From positions 2,356,001-2,420,000 of the forward strand of contig NZ_JAQNDK010000002.1 in assembly GCF_028368935.1 (NCBI RefSeq): a stretch of DNA of 64,000 nucleotides. Direction: 5' to 3'. This stretch comes from Sorangium aterium (lineage in GTDB: Bacteria; Myxococcota_A; Polyangia; Polyangiales; Polyangiaceae). This document shows, one piece after another, positions 18,871 to 19,086 of the stretch. A model generated the notes under the pieces. That model had not been told where the DNA came from. It did no database searches and worked only from the letters and a program-made list of their open reading frames with translations. Positions within the stretch are counted from its first letter, which is position 1. Every line of letters starts with the position of its first letter. The position numbers were made by a program, and so were the translations under genes.

Positions 18871-19086
18871 GTTGACGTTAACGTGGTCGTAGACGTTAAC
18901 GTGGTCGTGGTCGTGGTCGTGGTCGTGGTCGTCAACGGCAGGCCGTGAACGACCACGACCACGTTAACGACCACGACCACGACCACGACCACGTTAACGA
19001 CCACGACCACGACCACGACCACGTTAACGACCACGACCACGACCACGTTAACGACCACGTTAACGACCACGACCACGTTAACGTTG
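18871..19086. repeat. Phased hexamer array with a strand switch
   Basis: The entire 216 bases, apart from an 8-base centre (18937-18944), are 35 hexamers in perfect register. The left part consists of GTGGTC blocks and the right part of GACCAC blocks, its reverse complement. Both are punctuated by GTTAAC (at 18877, 18895, 18963, 18993, 19023, 19047, 19059 and 19077). The element sits between convergent genes. It opens reading frames on both strands (Val-Val or Asp-His repeats), which I treat as products of the repeat. Confidence 0.9.

Follow-up and report, generated by a model that had tools for sequence, protein, structure and literature searches.

Among the described systems closest to the array reported here are the IVS elements of bacterial 23S rRNA genes. 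In Coxiella, an S23p ORF lies within a hairpin that is cut by RNase III, and tandem heptamers (GACAGAT) whose copy number varies among strains are found beside this ORF; the authors name transposition as an origin that is still unproven (PMC4990558). For over 25 years, it has been an open question where rRNA IVS elements come from, whether they are mobile, and what the S23/IVP protein does (PMC4990558).

Intergenic heptamer arrays have been described in Xanthomonas (GGGAATC), where they often occur as inverted pairs (70 pairs in Xcc), and in Nostoc (GGGGATT), and were connected with neither IVP genes nor mobile elements (PMC4692102). The TAACTGA repeats of Beggiatoaceae were likewise reported without either connection (PMC4679880). 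The STRR heptamers of cyanobacteria were also published without an IVP link, whereas the cyanobacterial IVP genes sampled in this study carry such arrays. To our knowledge, the origin of these STRR heptamers is unexplained. No paper joining IVP genes to short tandem arrays was found in the literature searched, which left most subscription journals outside.

Here we analyze a hexamer array within a 64,000-nucleotide stretch of the Sorangium aterium genome, hereafter called the window. A sequence-only reading had treated the array as a single object, but it is in fact a single member of a family, related to elements carrying IVP genes, that has transposed and is scattered through the genome. Like the IVS elements of the Coxiella and Leptospira types, the family has inverted repeats as a stem, and the loop between them can carry a PF05635-type ORF. 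Unlike them, it is intergenic rather than located in a 23S rRNA gene, it exists as dozens of dispersed copies with long hexamer-array arms and target duplications, and the ORF has mostly been lost. With the heptamers of Xanthomonas and Nostoc and the cyanobacterial STRR sequences it shares intergenic short tandem repeats, and with those of Xanthomonas also a paired, inverted arrangement.

Structure and surroundings of the array

Direct reading of the sequence confirmed that the array is real, and it is also detected by TRF (score 204). It occupies positions 18871-19082 and is composed of 10 left units, a 20-bp centre, and 22 right units. The relevant features of the window are as follows.

18302-18748, + strand: small lipoprotein-like ORF directed towards the array; homologous DNA in G078 and G087 is without the array
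18833-18870, + strand: left-end remnant of the element (GAGCTTCGCGCCGCGTTCTCCTACCTCCAAACATGAAC), matching the family left end GCTTCGCGCCGCGTTCTCCTACATCCGAACG in more than 30 copies
18871-18930, + strand: left arm of 10 GTNNNC hexamers, read from the sequence and tokenised against 35 copies
18931-18950, + strand: centre (GTCAACGGCAGGCCGTGAAC), which together with one GACCAC has 47 matches in the genome and 0 for the control
18951-19082, + strand: right arm of 22 GNNNAC hexamers (GACCAC with 6 GTTAAC), read from the sequence
19083-19093, + strand: right boundary motif GTTGGTGACCG, which in most copies immediately follows the right arm
19111-19386, - strand: gene remnant (ORF) directed towards the array; 87% identical DNA in G087 is without the array
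19569-20153, - strand: protoglobin gene (ORF)

The left units are, in order, GTTGAC, GTTAAC, GTGGTC, GTAGAC, GTTAAC, and five copies of GTGGTC. Thus, this arm is not purely GTGGTC and GTTAAC, as had been stated, but also includes GTAGAC and GTTGAC. The centre is formed by GTCAAC, the 8-base core GGCAGGCC, and GTGAAC, and it is followed by GACCAC blocks of 2, 4, 4, 3, 1, and 2 units with GTTAAC between blocks. The hexamers had been reported to be in register throughout, but the 8-base core puts the two arms 2 bp out of phase with each other.

RNA folding predictions for each strand yield about -135 to -147 kcal/mol, with z values of -11.8 and -12.2 for the two strands relative to dinucleotide shuffles (0/200 shuffles), which agrees with the earlier proposal that a long hairpin can form. 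There is no T-tract 3′ of the hairpin in the sequence read. The orientations of the ORF on the left and the two on the right likewise bear out the placement of the array between convergent genes. A Pfam search with the left-neighbour ORF yielded no match.

In the relatives G078 and G087, homologues of the left and right flanks sit at different places, so that the array marks a break in synteny. Absence from relatives had been named as a sign against the array. Such absence does hold at this locus in both genomes, but it does not imply an artefact because the family is so widespread. The window copy lacks an ORF, the outer terminal repeat CATAGGCGTTAACC on the left, and both the rest of the right end and the terminal repeat there. 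Since the inner parts of both ends are kept while the terminal repeats are lost, we regard this copy as decayed. No target duplication is visible around it.

The window also carries other tandem repeats. Two long arrays of a 126-bp repeat (28705-30401 and 35432-37114) probably code for WD40-type repeats, which is a guess, and a 27-bp repeat with 7.6 copies and 92% matches is located at 62949-63152.

A dispersed family with a shared plan

Such arrays were searched for in the genome (13.47 Mb, 7 contigs), as had been suggested. The array-family search gave 91 matches, and about 40 further loci were among the places scored. When the centre plus one GACCAC was used with up to 3 mismatches, 47 matches were recovered compared to 0 for the control, and the pattern ACGACCACGACCACG has 564 matches versus 2 for its reversed control. 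We took 39 loci with their flanks for a comparison of anatomy, and 35 copies were tokenised into units. The left part of the family plan includes a terminal inverted repeat (CATAGGCGTTAACCAAGC), then GCGCCGCGTTCTCCTACATCCGAACG, and then a GTNNNC arm. This is followed by a 20-bp centre (GTCAACGRYAGGCCGTGAAC), a GNNNAC arm, a segment beginning with GTTGGTGACCGATGGTGGGG, and a right end that extends to GAGCTTGGTTAACGCCTATG.

Across copies, the arms draw on few units, which are phase-locked (493 GACCAC, 136 GTAAAC, 127 GTTCAC, 35 GACTAC, 18 GTCCAC, and 12 GTTAAC in the 35 copies). Several of these are interchangeable, GTTAAC among them, and GTTAAC, which duplicated locally in the window copy, is mostly confined to it. 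In addition, the lengths of the two arms within a copy are uncorrelated (rho 0.02), and arm co-evolution by composition is unsupported, with 478 of 5000 shuffles performing as well. Because GTTAAC is mostly private to the window copy and arm lengths are independent, the irregular block lengths, which had been read as a sign against a simple microsatellite, look like local slippage rather than a code. The lack of co-variation between the two arms also speaks against a hairpin kept perfect by strong selection.

Nearly all copies are intergenic and lie between protein genes, which by a rough gene caller are convergent at 15 copies, co-oriented at 22, and divergent at 2. Rfam returned only low-scoring hairpin matches below the gathering threshold, and a search of a plasmid collection for the array gave no match. 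At two loci of the genome that carries the window (L021 and L041), two to four centres follow one another with arms in between, as would result from tandem multiplication of the element. At L090 and L098, the same hexamers occur in coding repeats rich in His, and these two loci were set aside as unrelated coding sequence.

Signatures of transposition

Close matches to the terminal repeat surround arrays in the genome. Variants of CATAGGCGTTAACCAAGC are present at both ends in 18 copies, which are about 190-360 bp in length, and at one end or none in the others, including the window copy. Target-site duplications, called at a score of at least 7, flank 9 of the 18 two-ended copies, whereas such a call is made for 2.3% of mismatched pairs, in which the left end of one copy is combined with the right end of another. 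The duplications are near-perfect direct repeats, mostly of 10-12 bp (e.g. CCCCTTTCCCC, CGGGGATGCTC, CCCCGGAACC, and CCCGCATTCT). Their presence at half of the two-ended copies indicates that the family has transposed. The ends of the mini copies are CATAGGC.

The elements have the characteristics of MITEs, including short length, no transposase ORF, many dispersed copies, terminal inverted repeats, and target-site duplications. Duplications of 10-12 bp and CAT-type ends are the norm for IS231-like members of the IS4 family, whose transposition these features resemble. MITEs of this family are likewise short, ORF-less, and multi-copy, have terminal repeats that begin near CAT, and duplicate 10-12 bp of target sequence in which G/C runs are frequent. 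In contrast to these, the family described here has no partner with its ends at the 11 DDE_Tnp_1 loci of its genome, and its core is an IVP-related array palindrome. REP/BIME sequences are built on REP palindromes of 20-40 bp and accompanied by a TnpA-REP (RAYT) gene, and the family does not resemble them in element length, target duplications, or arrays. A MITE from Porphyromonas with an internal minisatellite (PMC4596501) resembles the family in containing a tandem repeat. Its host and repeat are different, and we know of no IVP link for it.

An IVP gene between the arms

The genome that carries the window has exactly one PF05635 gene, encoding a 23S rRNA intervening-sequence protein (IVP; C1:2468097-2468402, E 3.5e-17), and this gene sits between two hexamer arms. 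The features of this locus (L042), in its own coordinates, are as follows.

About 2432-2490: left arm
2889-2536, - strand: IVP ORF
About 2998-3147: right arm

A scan of genome contigs brought up loci of So ceGT47 whose two arms stand apart. At one of these (L080), the ORF in the gap codes for a 23S_rRNA_IVP protein (PF05635, E 4.5e-18; TIGR02436). Both here and at L042, an inverted repeat encloses a PF05635/TIGR02436 ORF in its loop. Four others (L061, L077, L097, and L128) carry a common 65-bp ORF remnant with identical breakpoints, and two more (L126 and L095) are partly deleted copies. The window centre GTCAACGGCAGGCCGTGAAC corresponds to the inner boundary motif that adjoins the IVP ORF in ORF-bearing copies, such as at the inner end of the L042 left arm, and in the window-type element this motif is fused straight onto the opposite arm. 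The full ORF, the 65-bp remnant, and the ORF-less form are a natural deletion series. Unlike the mini copies, the IVP-bearing locus L042 does not have the CATAGGCG ends, so that the history of these ends may be distinct from that of the IVP core.

The protein is modeled by AlphaFold as a four-helix bundle (pLDDT 91.5). The closest structures in a Foldseek search are 2GSC (XCC0516), 2RLD, and the DGR accessory protein Avd (4DWL and 8UB7), which shares the fold of IVP. Homology between Avd and IVP has been noted previously (PMC10053308). Eight IVP loci gave no Rfam match above threshold.

Arrays at IVP genes of other bacteria

PF05635 genes are present in 71 of the 108 genomes of Polyangiaceae, the family to which the window belongs, with up to 40 per genome. 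We scored 300-bp flanks for tandem repeats with periods of 4-15, using segments from the same loci as controls. In Polyangiaceae, arrays were identified at 41 of 93 flanks compared to 9 of 178 controls (p 1.6e-14), where the loci tested, as in the other two sets, are the better-scoring IVP hits. The periods are mainly 6, 7, and 8, and inverted repeats extend across the ORF in 23 of 44 cases versus 0 of 40 controls. In a mixed set that includes planctomycetes and other Myxococcota, which is not neutral because its genomes were first reached via a hexamer pattern, arrays are found at 24 of 56 flanks and 1 of 109 controls. A cyanobacterial order, sampled regardless of arrays except for its starting genome, has arrays at 29 of 55 flanks (one of the 29 being a run of N) against 4 of 106 controls. 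Inverted repeats are present there in 16 of 25 cases versus 0 of 23 controls, and the arrays are mostly heptamers such as CCCCAAT.

The association is significant against same-locus controls in all three sets. For about 40% of the IVP flanks the score is under 0.7, and thus arrays at IVP genes, while common, are not universal. There are no clear target duplications around the IVP elements of other genera.

Origin of the array and competing explanations

These findings suggest that the window array is probably a decayed, ORF-less copy (non-autonomous and MITE-like) of a dispersed family of IVP-related elements that is mobilised in trans and forms an RNA hairpin. A DDE transposase of the IS4/IS231 type, for which no locus with matching ends was found among the 11 DDE_Tnp_1 loci of this genome, would move the mini copies in trans, and replication slippage might lengthen and shorten the arms to give each copy its own block pattern. 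When a neighbouring gene is transcribed, the arms would pair into one long RNA hairpin. If this hairpin is handled by RNase III or by the termination machinery, insertion at the 3′ ends of genes could be nearly silent, as for rRNA IVS elements. An IVP ring might bind the hairpin or the arrays. The main gaps in this explanation are the transposase, which is missing, and the ends of the IVP-bearing copy, which differ from those of the mini copies.

A rival explanation is an ordinary MITE family of an IS4/IS231-like element, in which the internal palindrome is a hexamer array by chance and IVP is an unrelated passenger that once entered one copy. The terminal repeats, the 10-12-bp duplications, the lack of mini-copy ends at L042, and the far greater number of mini copies than IVP copies are all consistent with such an origin. 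However, the ORF occupies the same place between the arms in two Sorangium species, intermediates with an ORF remnant exist, and inverted 6-8-nt arrays with other unit sequences accompany IVP genes in unrelated phyla. We therefore consider a passenger gene unlikely.

It is less probable still that the array is a bidirectional transcription terminator or an RNase III processing hairpin that is kept between convergent genes for the benefit of the host. The strong hairpin predicted for both strands and the convergent neighbours in the window fit this function, and a rough gene caller places only 2 of the 39 copies between divergent genes. However, 22 copies lie between co-oriented genes. Furthermore, the homologous flanking genes of G078 and G087 do without the array, the arms vary freely with no co-variation, and a T-tract following the hairpin is absent.

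An operator-like array for a DNA-binding protein involved in nucleoid or partition functions, dispersed over the chromosome, appears very improbable to us. Its appeal comes from the phase-locked units at about 47 dispersed sites and from the innermost three units, which are GACCAC on both sides in most copies. Against it stand the transposition signature, a 6-bp period that is out of step with the helical repeat, and the different unit sequences and periods (6, 7, and 8) of related elements. Protein binding to the array form, as suggested from the sequence, may nonetheless occur. Finally, we give almost no credence to a simple hexanucleotide microsatellite that was expanded by slippage and inverted by template switching with no mobile element, since the local higher-order duplications that speak for it (a 30-bp unit in the window array and alternating two-unit runs) are outweighed by the centre and end segments conserved in about 47 places with target duplications, which refute it as the sole origin and uphold the earlier view that this is more than a plain microsatellite; slippage probably explains length variation only.

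A possible class of IVP elements

A broader version of the IVP-related element model can be proposed tentatively, although we judge its chances to be somewhat below even. IVP (S23) genes might be the core of a widespread class of mobile elements that is marked by paired, inverted 6-8-nt arrays. By this proposal, rRNA IVS elements would be members that landed in rRNA, and the Sorangium hexamers, the cyanobacterial STRR sequences, and the Xanthomonas GGGAATC pairs would represent arms and mini copies. An array-armed, dispersed IVP family with cleanly scarred insertions among its derivatives opens the old idea of mobile IVS elements to direct testing, and it offers a common origin for several unexplained families of bacterial tandem repeats.

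Several IVP loci have additional features. In the cyanobacterial loci L275-L302, arrays next to the IVP genes resemble classical STRR heptamers (CCCCAAT and TATTCCC). The IVP gene at L183 (G044) has a long, near-perfect terminal inverted repeat beginning with CCTACGTGGTCGCGTCCATCC that lies outside short hexamer arrays, and a target duplication is absent. Pairs of IVP hits lie on opposite strands within 1 kb of each other at L222 and L223 (G079) and at L225 and L227 (G059), flanked on one or both sides by a hexamer array. In the MAG Myxococcales fen_1138 (G124), whose IVP loci include L248, L255, L259, L261, L262, L266, L268, and L270-L273, most of the 13 IVP hits contain an in-frame TAG. Either a decayed master copy has multiplied in this genome, or TAG is read as an amino acid.
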